Of a stretch of 36,041 nucleotides of DNA, positions 6,475-35,900 are shown piece after piece. Source of the DNA: Candidatus Latescibacterota bacterium (GTDB lineage Bacteria; Krumholzibacteriota; Krumholzibacteriia; Krumholzibacteriales; Krumholzibacteriaceae). Both the position numbers and the translations under genes were made by a program. Each line of letters starts with the position of its first letter. Positions within the stretch are counted from its first letter, which is position 1. The notes beneath the pieces were generated by a model. It was not told the origin of the DNA. It did no database searches and saw only the letters and a list, made by a program, of their open reading frames with translations. Location: assembly GCA_019038625.1 (NCBI GenBank), contig JAHOYU010000246.1, positions 1-36,041 on the forward strand. Reading direction: 5' to 3'.

Positions 6475-6505
6475 TTAAATGGTGGAGGCGGTGGGAATCG
6501 AACCC
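6475..6505. repeat. Right attachment repeat (3' end of functional ssrA)
   Basis: Perfect 31-base copy of 1416-1446. It spans the T-loop to CCA of tmRNA plus five further bases. Because integration restores the 3' end of the target gene, tmRNA stays intact. A stem TTAACTC/GAGTTAA (6452-6478 region) sits beside it and could contribute to tmRNA 3' end formation. Confidence 0.9.
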
Positions 6506-6834
6506 ACGTCCGGAAATACTTCCACAGTTCTTCTACGTGCGTAGCCAGTCGATTTTTGTTCGCCGCCCGGTACTTCGACAGGCAAATGATCCGGGAAACT
6601 ATCTCCTCTTTTATTTCGCTATCGTTCCGGGAGAAAAAACGAAGGCTAGCCCTCAGAAATCGACGCCCGGATCAGGACCCTCAAGGCACGGACCTGGCGG
6701 ACGGGTTGCCTGTTCTAGGCAGCCAATGCCAAATTGTCGTTGGCAATTATGGTTTGCCACCTGATTTACGAGGTTGATGGCACCTCGGCACGCTTCTCCT
6801 GCTTCATCCATCCCCGTCGAATCCATTCGCCCCC
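6480..6834 (-). ncRNA. ssrA: tmRNA (transfer-messenger RNA)
   Basis: One-piece tmRNA of 355 nt that rescues stalled ribosomes and tags the nascent peptide. The 5' end GGGGGCGAATGGATTCGACG pairs with the 3' end CGCCTCC-A-CCA to form the acceptor stem (one G-U pair), and the T-arm GTGGG-TTCGATT-CCCAC is perfect. The tag reading frame runs from 6744 to 6715: GCC resume codon, peptide ANDNLALAA, stop TAG. With the alanine delivered by charged tmRNA the tag is AANDNLALAA, one residue shorter than in E. coli and ending in the LAA degron recognised by ClpXP. The 3' end doubles as the island attachment site. Confidence 0.96.
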
Positions 6835-9985: not shown

Positions 9986-11977
9986 TTAACGTCTCCGCCA
10001 CTCGTCCCAGCTTATCTCCCTGCCGGGCCAGGCCACACGCTCGAACGACCAATCACTACCTATCCAATCCCTGAGAAAAGAACCGAGCCTGTCCTCGAGG
10101 CCGGTGACAGCCTCGCTGTCCCGGACCCAGTAAAATACCTCAGCATCGTATTCATCCCTGAACGAAGGATTGATATAGACACCACCCAGGACACGCTTCC
10201 CATCCACATCCATGACAGCCCAGGCGAATGAATATCGGTTTTGAAATTCGATCCGGTGCCTGCCCAGCATATCCTTTTCCTGTTCGAGCGTCAGACCCTC
10301 ACGCGGCCAGTAAGGTGAGCCGAAAAGCTCTCTCAGGCTTTCCACACTCGACATGATCGCCTCATATTCAGGGCCTGCCAGCCTCTCGGTCAACATCGCC
10401 AGGCGAAAACCGTCGCCATCCACACTTACGGGAACCGAAAGATCGTCTGGCACGAATCCGAGTCTCTTCAAGGCCCAGAGTCCGCTTCTGCTGTCTCCAC
10501 GCAGTGATATCGATCTTTCGTAATTCTCTCTGGCCGCATCTTTCATCCCGAGTTTCATGAAGGCTTCACCGAGGCTGTCATATACATTGAACGACTCCGG
10601 GAAAAACTCGACATTGAGCCTGAAGAGAGTGACCGCTTCACCTGACCGCCCATCGTACATCAGGCGGTATCCCAGACTGTTGATCAACTGCTCATCAATG
10701 ATCTCGACAGAATCGTTTTCTTTACCGACTCTGAGCTTTCTGATGATCTCGACCGCCTGGTCCACTTCACCGGCAATGGCGGTCCGGATGACTTCCAGGC
10801 TGGGAGAATATCGGTTCCCGTAGTTTTCCATTATTTCCGATTCGAAAAGCGGATTCTCCCCACCAAGAGCTATATTTACGATCTCTTCGGTGATCGCCAG
10901 CCCGTTTTCGCTGTTCGTGAAATATACCAGCCCTGATTTCCACTTCCTGTATCCCAGCACACAACATTTGTATTCGCCGTTATCCCCCCAGTGCCAGATC
11001 GATTCCTCGTTCCTGACATGTTGAAGTCCGAAACCAAGTCCCCAGGACAGGGCACCGGGCGTCTCAGTCACAAGCCCACACTGCTTTGATAACATCTCTT
11101 CGGTACTCTCAGGAGTCAACCCTTCCCCCTTGAGCACAGCGGAAAGAAACCTCGCGAAATCCGCGGCAGTCGTGTAGAGGCTTGCCGCGGCGCTCCCTCG
11201 CCTTCGAATCCTCATTCCTCCAGCGATGCCAGTCATTGCGTGTGGAAAGGCTCCTGACTCATGATAGGCCTCCCTCCAGACAAAACTGCTCTTTTCCATC
11301 TTGAGGGGATCCAAAACAAGTTCACGCATGAGCGGCTCAAGCTTCTTATCCTTGATCTTCTCTACGACGGCCTGGAGCAGGATATAGCCTTCCCCCGAAT
11401 AACTGAAACTGGTGCCTGGATCGAATGAGATCTCTATCGGCATGGCATTTCGCCAGTTTGGAAAACCCGTCATATGAGCAAGAACATGACGGGCCGTAAT
11501 ATCCATTATCCTATCGTCATCACTTTTACGTTTGAGAAATTCCCGTTCGATATATTCAAGCCCCGTATATTCGACGAGCGGCCTGTCGAGATCGATATCA
11601 CCATAGTCGACCATTTTCATCAACGCGTAAGCAAAGACCGGCTTGCTCAGTGAACAGGCTTCGAAGACAGTTTCTTCTGTCACCTTCTCCCCGGTCACTG
11701 TACTCCTCACACCGAACCCTTCCACCCACACGACTTCTCCATCCCTGATGAGCGCGGCCGACAGGCCCGGAATCGAAGCTTGCTCCATAAGTTCCGGCAG
11801 AGTCTCTTTCAATTCCACCACCAGCCTGCTGACCGGAATATAAGTCATTACAGGGGCGCTGCCGATATCCTCAAAATCATCATCGGGCGAGATTCCAGTG
11901 ATGAAGCGATTGCATCCGGCAGCCATCAAAACAAAGATGATCACAATGACGCTAAAAACCCTGAAATCTCTTATCAT
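9986..11977 (-). CDS. Lipoprotein serine hydrolase (beta-lactamase/esterase fold) fused to TPR and GNAT-like domains
   Basis: A 663-residue lipoprotein with lipobox MAAGC (Cys22). Residues about 50-370 are a class C beta-lactamase-related domain (PF00144): Ser109-Leu-Ser-Lys112 is the SxxK nucleophile, Tyr193-Ser-Gly the second motif, and His329-Trp-Gly the third. Family members are mostly D-aminopeptidases, esterases or cell-wall peptidases, so antibiotic hydrolysis should not be assumed. About 390-505 holds TPR-like helices (SFNVYDSLGEAFMKLGMKDAARENYERSI). The last 140 residues, with YSFAWAVMDVDGKRVLGGVY, DAEVFYWVR and VAWPGREISWDEW, resemble a GNAT N-acetyltransferase domain, odd for an exported lipoprotein. 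GGAG precedes the ATG. It converges on the S9 peptidase through a shared terminator. Confidence 0.85.
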   Translation of the reverse strand: MIRDFRVFSVIVIIFVLMAAGCNRFITGISPDDDFEDIGSAPVMTYIPVSRLVVELKETLPELMEQASIPGLSAALIRDGEVVWVEGFGVRSTVTGEKVTEETVFEACSLSKPVFAYALMKMVDYGDIDLDRPLVEYTGLEYIEREFLKRKSDDDRIMDITARHVLAHMTGFPNWRNAMPIEISFDPGTSFSYSGEGYILLQAVVEKIKDKKLEPLMRELVLDPLKMEKSSFVWREAYHESGAFPHAMTGIAGGMRIRRRGSAAASLYTTAADFARFLSAVLKGEGLTPESTEEMLSKQCGLVTETPGALSWGLGFGLQHVRNEESIWHWGDNGEYKCCVLGYRKWKSGLVYFTNSENGLAITEEIVNIALGGENPLFESEIMENYGNRYSPSLEVIRTAIAGEVDQAVEIIRKLRVGKENDSVEIIDEQLINSLGYRLMYDGRSGEAVTLFRLNVEFFPESFNVYDSLGEAFMKLGMKDAARENYERSISLRGDSRSGLWALKRLGFVPDDLSVPVSVDGDGFRLAMLTERLAGPEYEAIMSSVESLRELFGSPYWPREGLTLEQEKDMLGRHRIEFQNRYSFAWAVMDVDGKRVLGGVYINPSFRDEYDAEVFYWVRDSEAVTGLEDRLGSFLRDWIGSDWSFERVAWPGREISWDEWRRR

Positions 11978-12063
11978 TTCACCAATCTCCGTGCTAAAGG
12001 GAACTAATAAGCATTTTACTATGTATATAGTCTTGCCAGGCTCATCCGGGCTTCAACGAGCTT

Positions 12064-12215
12064 TCGGGGTTGGACCATGCCGGCTTTCACGGCCGGTCGG
12101 CCGGGCATTGGACGCACTGCGTGTTCCCGGGAACTCCCAGTACCAATGGCAGAGAAACGCTACAAGACTCTCTTGCCGCACCTCGGTCGGTTCCCTTTCA
12201 TGGCTCCAACCCCGA
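12064..12215. ncRNA. Candidate structured RNA or small inverted-repeat element
   Basis: TCGGGGTTGGACCATG (12064-12079) pairs over all 16 bases with 12199-12215 (CATGG-C-TCCAACCCCGA, one bulged C). Inside lie a CCGGC/GCCGG hairpin (12080-12096), a CATTGG/CCAATG pairing (12106-12111 with 12143-12148), an ACGC/GCGT hairpin (12112-12122) and a 12-base palindrome GTTCCCGGGAAC (12123-12134). It does not match the hallmark sequences of 6S, SRP, RNase P or tmRNA that I know. Either strand could be transcribed. A small non-autonomous inverted-repeat element is the alternative. Confidence 0.45.
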
Positions 12216-12320
12216 TTATCGAAGATCGAATCATATTAAAAGATATTCCCGGAACGTCTGTTGCGCAACTTCCATCGTCAATGACAGTCCATCTCTGACA
12301 AATCTATATCTTTTCAATGG

Positions 12321-12349
12321 TTGACAATGACGATATCGCAGGATATCGT
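12321..12349 (+). promoter_or_regulatory. Predicted promoter of the 48-residue protein gene
   Basis: Consensus -35 TTGACA (12321-12326), 17-base spacer, then TATCGT (12344-12349), a moderate -10. GATATCG is repeated in the spacer and over the -10. The start codon follows 34 bases downstream of the -10. Confidence 0.5.
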
Positions 12350-12382
12350 GAACGGGTACATTCAGCAGGAGGAGGCACAGTC

Positions 12383-12529
12383 ATGAAAAAGTTCCATCTT
12401 TGCAGTGAGGGCAAGTGCTGCCCCGAAGTCATCGTCGATGGAGACAAAATCATCATTACTGATGATGACGGCGGGCAGGTAAAACTCTCGAAGGAGCAGG
12501 TGAAGATCCTCTGGGATAACCTGAAGTAA
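12383..12529 (+). CDS. Small CC-motif protein of unknown function (48 aa)
   Basis: Begins MKKFHLCSEGKCCPEVIVDG and ends VKILWDNLK. ATG 12383 is chosen over the in-frame ATG at 12317 because AGGAGGAGG lies 8-16 bases before it and because the family-like part begins here. The protein is a short beta-rich, acidic domain with Cys7, Cys12 and Cys13. Small proteins with a KCCP motif followed by D-D-G-G-x-V-K-L-x-K-E-Q are, as I remember, common unannotated genes in anaerobic bacteria; a metal- or redox-binding role is conceivable but unproved. The gene stands alone, converging on the HDOD gene. Confidence 0.72.
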   Translation: MKKFHLCSEGKCCPEVIVDGDKIIITDDDGGQVKLSKEQVKILWDNLK

Positions 12530-12550
12530 TTGGGGAACTGACCTGAATTA

Positions 12551-13483
12551 TCACGGCGTCGCGGCTGGTCGCGGCGCCGTTTGACTTCCTGACGCAAGAG
12601 ATATCAGGACTTCGCTTTTCTTCGATTCCTGGATGACACTGTTTATGGTAGAGTCGATCTGTCCCTGATCTATTTGCAGCTCTTCCATTATCGCGGCTGG
12701 CAGTTCCGTTATGCCGAGATTTCCGGCACCGACAAACCCCTTGTAATTGCATATGCAGTCAGCAAGATGGGTCACCTGCACACAATGTCTATATCCCGGA
12801 TCAGCCTTGTCCGGCCTGTGATGCCACGATACTGCCTGTACGATCCGGTGCGGTATCTTCCAGAGTTGTAGAAGCTTTCCTCCGACCTGGCCATGATCCA
12901 TCTTGAAGGCCTCGAATTCCGCATCATGTACGGAAGTCATATTCTTCTTGGCGTCAAGCCAGACCTTGTGGATCGTGTCGGTAAAATACTGCTCGAGGAT
13001 CAAAGTGCCGATATCATGAAGAAGGCCAGCAGTATAAGCTTCGCCACTGAATTCATCCTCGATCACTTTTGACATCCGTACTATATGCTTCGAGGCGTAG
13101 GCGACGATTATACAATGTTTCCAGAACATAGCATGATTTCTGAAGCTTCCGATATTCCTGAAAGTGCCTATGACAGACAGAGTGGAACAGAACTCTCCTA
13201 TCTCTTTCAGCCCGATCTTGACGATAGCATCCGAGATCGTAGATACGGGACCACCGGAAGATGGATACCATGCTGAATTGGCAAGTCTGAGGATATTCGT
13301 ACTGAGCGCGGGGTCATCAGCAATGATCTCGCCGATTCGATCGGCGCTGGAATCGTTGGCAGAAAGCGCACTCTGAAGCAGGAAAACAACAGCCGGGATC
13401 GTAGGCAGGCTGTGGCCATGGCTGAGCACTTCTTTCAATTCTCTGCGGAATGTCTTCATATGATTCCAGTTTATCGGAGGCAA
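12551..13483 (-). CDS. HDOD-domain signalling protein
   Basis: A 310-residue cytoplasmic protein made almost entirely of an HDOD domain. The signature DDPALSTNILRLANSAWY (about 56-73) and the HD pair His156-Asp157 (AGLLHDIGTLIL) are present, but the full metal-binding set of true HD-GYP phosphodiesterases is not, as usual for HDOD proteins, which act as signalling scaffolds in motility, biofilm or stress control. The longest frame starts at TTG 13483; ATG 13459 (MKTFRRELKEVL) is an equally plausible start, as neither has a clear Shine-Dalgarno site. The 3' end overlaps a G+C-rich hairpin. A signalling link to the adjacent PilZ-containing synthase operon is possible but inferred only from proximity. 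Confidence 0.88.
   Translation of the reverse strand: MPPINWNHMKTFRRELKEVLSHGHSLPTIPAVVFLLQSALSANDSSADRIGEIIADDPALSTNILRLANSAWYPSSGGPVSTISDAIVKIGLKEIGEFCSTLSVIGTFRNIGSFRNHAMFWKHCIIVAYASKHIVRMSKVIEDEFSGEAYTAGLLHDIGTLILEQYFTDTIHKVWLDAKKNMTSVHDAEFEAFKMDHGQVGGKLLQLWKIPHRIVQAVSWHHRPDKADPGYRHCVQVTHLADCICNYKGFVGAGNLGITELPAAIMEELQIDQGQIDSTINSVIQESKKSEVLISLASGSQTAPRPAATP
12553..12583 (+). terminator. Possible terminator after the 48-aa gene
   Basis: ACGGCG (12553-12558) pairs with CGCCGT (12575-12580), with further CGCG pairing inside, followed by only three T residues. It lies 24 bases after the stop codon, inside the 3' end of the opposing HDOD gene. A weak candidate. Confidence 0.35.
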
Positions 13484-32720: not shown

Positions 32721-32995
32721 CGAGAGTCCGGACCTGCCAGACTTCCAGCAGAGTACAGCATCCAGCGATCAAAGACAATCCGATTCTGACGACCAGAGAC
32801 AATCATGCCTGACAATCGAACAGTATCCGATTCTGTCGGCAGGACTGATCGATGGAACTTGAATTACTTCTCGACTGTATATAAGATATCTTTATCGACA
32901 GGGGGGCCAGGAATGACGGAGGCCTCCCCGGGAACGGTCTGGTCGTCAGTCCGAAGTATCCCCGATTCACACTGGTACTCTTCTGGAGGTTTCAA
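32721..32995. other. Divergent intergenic region with repeated motifs
   Basis: GACAATC occurs three times (32774-32780, 32798-32804, 32811-32817) and CCGATTCTG twice (32780-32788, 32827-32835), lying between the divergent barrel and tricorn-like genes. On the minus strand a TTGTCT-17-TACTCT promoter is possible for the barrel gene. No coding region is seen. Confidence 0.45.
32859..32887 (+). promoter_or_regulatory. Predicted promoter of the tricorn-like protease gene
   Basis: TTGAAT (32859-32864), 17 bases, TAAGAT (32882-32887). The overlapping TATAAG two bases earlier is an alternative -10. The untranslated leader would be about 100 bases. Confidence 0.5.
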
Positions 32996-35900
32996 TGAAA
33001 CGTCTTCTGCTGATCCTTCTCGTTCTCATTCCATCCGCGGCATTCTCGGCAGGCCGGGGTTATTACCGGTATCCCGCCATCCATGGTGAGACTCTGATAT
33101 TCACCGCCGAGGGCGACCTGTGGAAGGTACCTCTCTCCGGCGGTACCGCGAGACGGCTCACGACCCACCACGGCATGGAGTCTTCCGCGACGATATCTCC
33201 CGATGGACAGACGATAGCGTTCTGCGGACAGTACGAGGGGCCGAGGGAAGTCTACACACTCCCGATAGATGGTGGAGTACCTCTGAGAAGGACATGGGAG
33301 AGCGGGGCGACAGTCACAGGATGGACTCCCGACGGCAGGATCGCGTACACGACGGATCGGTACTCGACCCTTCCAAATACACAGATGATACTCCTGGACA
33401 TATCGGATGGCACAAAAGAAATGCTCCCACTTGCCCAGATCAGCGATGGAGCCTGGGGTGGCAGGAACAAGGATCTCTTCTTTACGCGCCTTCCGTTCCA
33501 GGGAAGCCAGACTAAAAGATACAAGGGCGGCACGATTCAGCACTTGTGGAAATTCCCTCCGAACGCCACAGAGGCGATCCCCCTTACTGATGATTTCGCG
33601 GGCACGAGCAAGGACCCCATGTGGTGGAAAGACAGATTATACTTTCTCAGCGACCGTGACGGCACGATGAACTTCTGGTCGATGAACCAAGACGGCGGCG
33701 ATATCCGCCAACATACTTTCCACAAAGGACTCGACGCGGCCAACCCTTCCATTTACGAAGGGAAAATCGCCTACCAGTTGATCGCGGACATCCACGTATA
33801 CGACATCGCTTCTGACACTGACAGGAATATCCCCATAGAGCTCTCATCCGATTTTGATCAGATGAGAGAAAAATGGGTGACAGATCCATCGAAATACATC
33901 ACAGCCGTCAACATCTCCCCCGACGGCAGTCGTGTTGCCCTTACGGCAAGGGGACAGGCCTTTACAGTTCCTGTGAAGGAAGGAAGGTTCGTCAGGGTGA
34001 CGAGGAAGGACGGCGTCCGCTACCGGGGAGCGACCTTCATGCCGGACGGCAAGACCCTGGTCGCGCTTAGCGATGAAAGTGGTGAACTCGAATTCCTGAC
34101 CCTGCCTGCCGATGGAACCGGTGAGGAGACAAGGCTGACGGATGACGGAAAGATCCTCAGGTACCAGGGGATTCCATCACCGGACGGAAAGTATATTGCA
34201 TATGCTGACAAGAATTACATTCTCTGGATACTCGATGTCGAAAAGAAGAGCTCCAGAAAGATCGACGAATCCGGTTACTACAACTTCTCCGGAATCACAT
34301 GGTCTCCCGGCAGCAGGTACCTCGCTTTCGATGCCAGGGCGAAAAATCATTTCAACATCATAAAGATCTACGACACCGAGAAAAAACAGTCCGTTACAGT
34401 GACAGGAGAACGGTTCGATTCGTACAATGCTGCATGGAGTCATGATGGAAAATGGCTTTATTTTGTTTCTGACAGGACTTTCAACAGCCTCGTAAGCAGC
34501 CCGTGGGGACTGCGCAACCCGTCACCGTTCTTCGACAGGATGACAAAAATTTATATGATGTCTCTCGTTCCAGGAGAAAGGTCTCCCTTCATTCCGGACG
34601 ACGAGGTCTATCTCGCCGAAAAGAAACTGTCTGATGAAAAAAAGAAACAGGATGAAGAAAAAAAGAAGAAAAACAAGGATAAAAAGGATTCGAAAAAGGG
34701 CAAAGGCAACGACGCAGTCTCGATAGAGTTCGATGGGATCAGATCGAGAGTATACGAAGTGCCTGTGCCGGCAGGAAACTATTCCGGCCTGGAAGCCGGC
34801 GAGGACATCCTCTTTTTCTCAGACAGAAAATTGCGCGGCAGCGGTAGCCGCAGTCTTAAGGCGCTCAAAGTCACAAACACAGACATAGAGATAAAGACTG
34901 TCCTGGATGGAGTATCTTCCTGGACACTTTCCGGAGACTCGAAAAAAATACTCGTAAGGAAGAGTGGCGGAATATACGTCATAGACGCGAGTACCTCCGG
35001 CCCGTCAAAGCTCGGCAAGAATAAAGTCGATCTGGGCGGCTGGGCATTCACTATCGATCCAAAACAGGAATGGCAACAGATATTCGCCGAAGCATGGAGA
35101 CTGGAGAGAGACTACTTTTACGATACGGACATGCACGGCGTGGACTACGACGGACTTTTTAAAAAATATTCGCCCTACGTCGACAGGGTCACCGACCGCT
35201 ACGAACTGAGCGACCTTATCTCCCACCTTGTCGGAGAACTATCCACTCTGCATACATTTGTCGTGCGGGGTGACCTCCGTACTCCACAGCTGAACATCCG
35301 ACAGGGAGCTCTCGGTGCGCTTCTGGAAAAAGACGTTAAGAATAAAGGATACAGGATCGCCCATATCTACAGGGCGGATCCGGACATCCTGAATATAATC
35401 TCTCCTCTCGCTGATCCCGGCTCCAGGATCACCGAGGGTGATGTCATAATGGCTATAGATGGCATCGCGCTTGATACGATCGAGGACTGGTCTCTTCCGC
35501 TGAGAAATACTGCCGGCAAGCAGGTCCTGCTTTCCCTGAGATCGAAGGACGGGACAGAATACAGGGCGATAGTGACTCCCATCTCTACAGGCGCCGAATT
35601 CAATCTCCGTTACAGCCAGTGGGAGAACGAACGAAGGGAAATGGTCGAAGAAAAAAGCAACGGCGATATCGGATACGTCCATCTCAGGGCGATGGGTTCT
35701 GAAAATATTGCGGAATGGACGAGAGAATACTATCCCGCCTTCGACCGGAAGGGATTGATAATAGATGTCAGGAACAACCGCGGGGGCAATATCGACAGCT
35801 GGATCCTCGAAAAACTTCTCCGGCGCGCGTGGTTCTACTGGAAGCCCAGAGTGGGCAACCCGTTCTGGAACATGCAGTACGCGTTCAGGGGCCATCTTGT

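Follow-up and report, generated by a model that had tools for sequence, protein, structure and literature searches.

A probable and very rare structured RNA encoded upstream of a small protein gene in Krumholzibacteriota

The intergenic region upstream of the small CC protein gene in the analysed window (the whole stretch of 36,041 nucleotides, which forms contig C246 of G000, a genome of 3.78 Mb) contains a folded block of about 150 nt, at 12064-12215, for which a genuine, though very rare, RNA is the probable explanation. Its paired bases have changed together in a homologue located at the same spot in another genus, and for this reason an accidental fold or the debris of a transposon is less likely.

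Results and Discussion

The Folded Block and Its Intergenic Setting

The block is flanked by a serine hydrolase gene (9986-11977, minus strand), which has a Pfam Beta-lactamase match, and by the CC protein gene, and the stretch between the two holds no conserved genes. The neighbouring genes scanned with Pfam include these two and one for an HDOD protein (12551-13483, minus strand). The preliminary description of this DNA, made from its letters, had called the region gene-free, and this still stands: the two ORFs that overlap the block have no Pfam match, and two of the three forward frames of the homologue contain stops. A coding reading was rejected on these observations, and also on two others: the homologue has a TAG immediately 5' of the stretch that corresponds to hairpin P5, in the frame where the window reads ATG, and the changes within P5 are not concentrated at third codon positions.

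No known housekeeping RNA had been recognized in the block, and the Rfam 15 search is in agreement with this. The only gathering match in the window is the tmRNA gene (RF00023, 203.7 bits; 6480-6834, minus strand), nothing credible is found at E up to 10 in the block and nothing at E up to 10 in the region of the homologue, and no family reaches gathering for either copy. At the level of titles and searches, no paper was found on noncoding or small RNA in Krumholzibacteriota, and a query of GCUACAAG with "hairpin" returned none on bacterial RNA by title.

Fold prediction, together with a search for palindromes and helices, recovered all the features described beforehand, i.e., a closing helix, nested hairpins (predicted) and a 12-base palindrome (GTTCCCGGGAAC, 12123-12134) located inside P4. 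The closing helix P1 comprises 16 bp and includes 11 uninterrupted Watson-Crick pairs. The features of the element and its surroundings are collected in Table 1.

Table 1. Features of the candidate RNA element and its surroundings (positions in the window)
Feature	Positions	Strand	Remarks
Possible promoter GGAAC-N18-GTATA	12000..12027	+	Also 5' of the homologue; kept in a sister species without the element
P1 left arm, closing helix	12064..12079	+	16 nt; 14/14 modelled pairs kept in the homologue, 3 changed on both sides
Segment missing from same-genus genome G001	12068..12311	+	Flanks 11997-12067 and 12312-12591 align at 86-87%
P2 small hairpin	12080..12096	+	In the minimum free energy fold of the window copy only; absent from the fold of the homologue
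P3 left arm UCGGCCGGG	12097..12105	+	Predicted fold and structure-guided alignment
P4 hairpin	12117..12140	+	Contains the 12-base palindrome; apex UCCCGGG common to the homologue
P5 hairpin GGCAGAGAAACGCUACAAGACUCUCUUGCC	12148..12177	+	30 nt; 27/30 letters match the homologue
P3 right arm CUCGGUCGG	12182..12190	+	Predicted fold and structure-guided alignment
P1 right arm, closing helix	12199..12215	+	One bulged C
Sigma-70-like CC-gene promoter TTGACA-17-TATCGT	12321..12349	+	3' of the element
Small CC protein gene	12383..12529	+	48 aa; the next gene 3' of the element in the window and in G015

The window block folds at -67.6 kcal/mol (z -3.31), a stability equalled by 2 of 200 dinucleotide shuffles. 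When the intergenic region (11978-12382) was shuffled 300 times, six of the resulting sequences contained an uninterrupted helix of at least 11 bp. The window sequence taken alone is moderately unusual, that is, suggestive and short of conclusive. The earlier claim that these features lie far beyond chance does not hold for the single sequence; it does hold once the homologue is counted, because models built from each copy separately recover the other. The modest single-sequence statistics, and a z of just -1.9 for the plus strand of the homologue, would fit a chance fold or a neutral spacer, but the reciprocal matches and the co-varying pairs described below make that reading very improbable.

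A Single Homologue in Another Genus

The first trace of the homologue was a short match at locus L042, seen when the CC-gene loci were compared. It belongs to contig JAFGBF010000024.1 of a Candidatus Krumholzibacteriota MAG (G015) of the same family and another genus, where it has the same orientation and is also located upstream of the CC gene, as in the window. The 30-nt pattern of P5, allowing up to three mismatches, occurs in 2 of 80 genomes of the class, namely the window's own and G015.

To avoid circularity, one model was built from the window copy alone (R2) and another from the G015 copy alone (R3), separately from the joint model (R1). R2, searched against 78 genomes of the class, matched only itself and G015 (E 2.0e-8, 61.4 bits), and the window copy was the sole match of R3 besides its own source (E 4.8e-10), both matches being full length and all model E-values being rough because of a short calibration. 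The joint model, run against 98 genomes, returned the same two copies and a weak match in G076 (E 0.016, 23.9 bits). We read the latter as chance because its alignment contains several non-standard pairs and the ORF translations of that stretch presumably resemble tRNA-derived sequence. With laxer filters, R1 yielded extra matches in 25 genomes only at E of at least 0.12, and a P5-like stretch in G009 (R1, E 1.4) appears to be coding sequence. Searching the 98 genomes with the window block as DNA produced hits (E up to 1) in 68, which, besides the window itself, were short pieces only (best E 0.001, 31 nt).

The two copies are about 60% identical (91/147 letters in the MAFFT alignment and 88/146 in the structure-guided one). 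By parts, the identity reaches the value given in Table 1 for P5 and 61/116 for the remainder.

Covariation and the Likely Strand

The search for compensatory changes in relatives, which the preliminary description had proposed, gave a positive answer with the single homologue, whose paired columns co-vary with those of the window copy in the structure-guided alignment (two sequences, hand-made and fitted to the plus strand). All the modelled pairs of P1 are standard in both copies. Two-sided changes affect 6 of 31 pairs, three in P1 and three in P4, a count that is limited since it comes from one homologue; one simulation gives it a P of 0.003, and in a second one 12 of 500 shuffles attained it. 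Two cells of P4 are non-standard in the window copy, and the pairs of P3 are standard in 9/9 cases in the window copy and in 7/9 in the homologue. Over the whole structure, 96.8% of the cells are paired, whereas sliding the partners by 1-3 columns leaves 35-53%. When P3 is included, the standard cells number 77 out of 82 paired ones; the null mean is 62.4, and none of 100,000 simulations reached 77. These co-varying pairs, together with reciprocal single-sequence models that match only each other, argue for the new structured RNA that had been put forward as one option for this block.

The plus strand is the likely reading, favoured by the G-U pairs, the alifold z and the possible promoter, although two sequences cannot fully settle either the strand or the fold. 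The column-shuffled alifold z is -7.0 for the plus strand versus -5.7 for the minus strand, and the plus reading has seven G-U cells, which become A-C on the minus strand, versus a single A-C cell in the opposite direction. The alternative of a minus-strand structured RNA would be compatible with the minus-strand alifold z and with folding energies, since in neither copy does the minus strand fold less stably than the plus strand: the two strands of the window copy fold about equally well, and in the homologue the minus strand reaches -69.1 kcal/mol (z -4.6) and the plus strand -62.7 kcal/mol. Nevertheless, this reading turns the G-U pairs of P3 and P4 into A-C, the possible promoter points to the plus strand, and the transcript of the homologue would head towards the 3' end of a prolyl-oligopeptidase gene. 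We therefore regard a minus-strand RNA as quite improbable.

Promoters and the Relation to the CC Gene

Upstream of the element there is a GGAAC-N18-GTATA motif, found also at position 1131 of L042 and at position 1356 of L033. In 577 kb of loci (both strands, many of them overlapping), this motif, which was chosen after being seen, occurs at this locus only, in these three genomes. The longer form GGAAC-N18-GTATAWA appears five times in the own genome, two of them in the 36-kb window, and not at all in a reversed control. From its letters, the motif would be an alternative-sigma-like promoter, with a transcription start near 12036. The second window copy of GGAAC-N18-GTATAWA is located at 32854-32883 on the plus strand, upstream of a gene-start ATG at 32996, and the reading frame from this ATG begins like a signal peptide.

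The CC gene is present in 18 of the 98 genomes searched, all of the same family and order. Its product carries a CSEGKCCP motif, has no Pfam or NCBIfam match and is a conserved small protein. The main rival to an independent RNA is a structured leader of this gene: transcription from the upstream promoter would yield a long RNA with the element in its 5' UTR, where it would sense something and control the CC gene. That the block might be such a leader had been suggested earlier, and its position is in accordance with this, as it lies just upstream of the CC gene in the same orientation in both genomes. In addition, G001, of the same genus, has a counterpart of 11997-12067 with 86% identity, located directly 5' of the CC promoter, and no terminator was found after the element and before the CC gene. 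The leader reading is nonetheless not favoured because a sigma-70-like -35/-10 pair lies between the element and the gene, and a promoter-like site is found there in G015 too, with about one such site expected in the shuffled region (mean 0.9). Transcription from the distal promoter would still be possible with this intervening site. Furthermore, the element ends about 170 nt 5' of the start codon, no expression platform is seen, and 16 of the 18 genomes with the CC gene do without the element. Thus, we consider a CC-gene leader unlikely.

On the other side of the block, the homologue has a prolyl-oligopeptidase gene on the plus strand as its upstream neighbour. The position upstream of the serine hydrolase gene, to which attention had also been drawn, is consequently unlikely to matter.

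Copy Number, Empty Sites and History of the Element

The exact 18-base core of P5, GAGAAANGCTACAAGNNTCTC, occurs at 12 loci of the genome_contigs collection (84,980 species), and one of them, the G015 contig, is real. The other 11 have no full-length match, about seven being expected by chance (an estimate). This exact pattern would miss more diverged relatives outside the class, and the covariance models covered up to 98 genomes. Two viral_contigs loci of a shorter pattern, GCTACAAGNNTCTCTTGCC, gave no model match, three further patterns were not found in viral_contigs, and neither copy had a match among phage and plasmid records.

Each of the two genomes, G000 and G015, has one copy. The alternative of a small inverted-repeat element, which had been offered with many genomic copies as the sign of a transposon remnant, does not agree with this single copy in the own genome, and both the dispersed-element and the chance readings are disfavoured.

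In G001, only a few bases separate the aligned flanks, and the element and about 90 nt 3' of it are missing. In G009, of the genus of G015, a terminator-like repeat comes after the prolyl-oligopeptidase gene, the CC promoter is next, and the element is absent. No credible model match was found in either of these sister species, and this absence shows that the element is dispensable. G001 also lacks the serine hydrolase and HDOD genes at this locus, which is therefore a fluid one: gain or loss takes place between the genes for the prolyl-oligopeptidase and the glycosyltransferase.

A DNA element, i.e., a hairpin-forming insertion or a recombination or protein-binding site, for instance a MITE-like relic lacking its enzyme, would account for the terminal inverted repeats, for the presence and absence between sister species, and for the left edge of the segment missing from G001, which coincides with the left arm of P1. 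Its right edge, by contrast, falls about 90 nt beyond P1, and no target-site duplication is seen in the alignment with the empty site of G001. The single copy per genome at the same site in two genera, the symmetric changes in both arms and the lack of matches in phages or plasmids also stand against a DNA element, which we find rather unlikely.

The flanks of the two copies are weakly similar in global alignment, where the upstream similarity was equalled by 19 of 1000 shuffles and the downstream one by 75 of 1000. In local alignment their similarity was not above chance, and homology upstream of the two copies was rejected on that basis. Descent with losses would fit the same site and orientation and the strong divergence of the copies better than two independent insertions.

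Proposed Role of the RNA

Judging from the two sequences, the best explanation is an accessory structured RNA gene on the plus strand, predicted to be mainly independent, to which we give an even chance. After initiating near the start proposed above, the RNA would fold by way of the long closing helix P1, through P3, to two hairpins, P4 and P5. The CCCGGG apex of P4 could form dimers. Recognition of a protein, or of another RNA by base pairing, would probably fall to P5, whose stem and loop are almost invariant. For the most part the molecule would work independently, with the downstream CC gene keeping its own promoter, and the patchy presence would fit a common ancestor of the two genera followed by repeated loss. 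These functions are suggested by the anatomy of the molecule alone. A more daring proposal, which we hold as doubtful, is that the element is a new class of independent RNA of a few Krumholzibacteriota lineages that self-associates via the CCCGGG-tipped hairpin and offers its invariant AANGCUACAAGNN loop to a protein or RNA partner, as an accessory gene repeatedly lost.

Comparison with the empty sites of the sister species offers a test of loss and function, and hairpin P5, being nearly invariant, is a specific probe for metatranscriptomes.

Comparison With Known RNAs and Elements

Integron attC sites are formed by imperfect inverted repeats. The element has such repeats too, and the left arm of the window copy reads GTTGGAC; however, the core letters run in the opposite order, and the homologue does not preserve them (GCTGGAC). 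The msr-msd RNA of retrons is closed by long inverted repeats, as this element is, but the genes around it that were scanned with Pfam include no reverse transcriptase. HEARO, or omega RNA, and other transposon-linked RNAs have about 150 nt, a closing helix and a patchy presence. The element shares these three traits and differs from those RNAs in that the scan of the neighbouring genes showed neither nuclease nor transposase, in the lack of an Rfam match and in being single copy.

Orphan bacterial structured RNAs have been described by comparative genomics of intergenic regions (PMC2864571, PMC11109978). Unlike those RNAs, as outlined in these reports, the element has two known members, in one family of one phylum, and no Rfam 15 match. 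Like them, again as the reports outline them, it is intergenic, with a conserved fold, strongly conserved loop letters and no known function (PMC2864571, PMC11109978). With it, an uncultured phylum gains a candidate RNA family, which for now joins many other orphan RNA candidates and has unusually few members.
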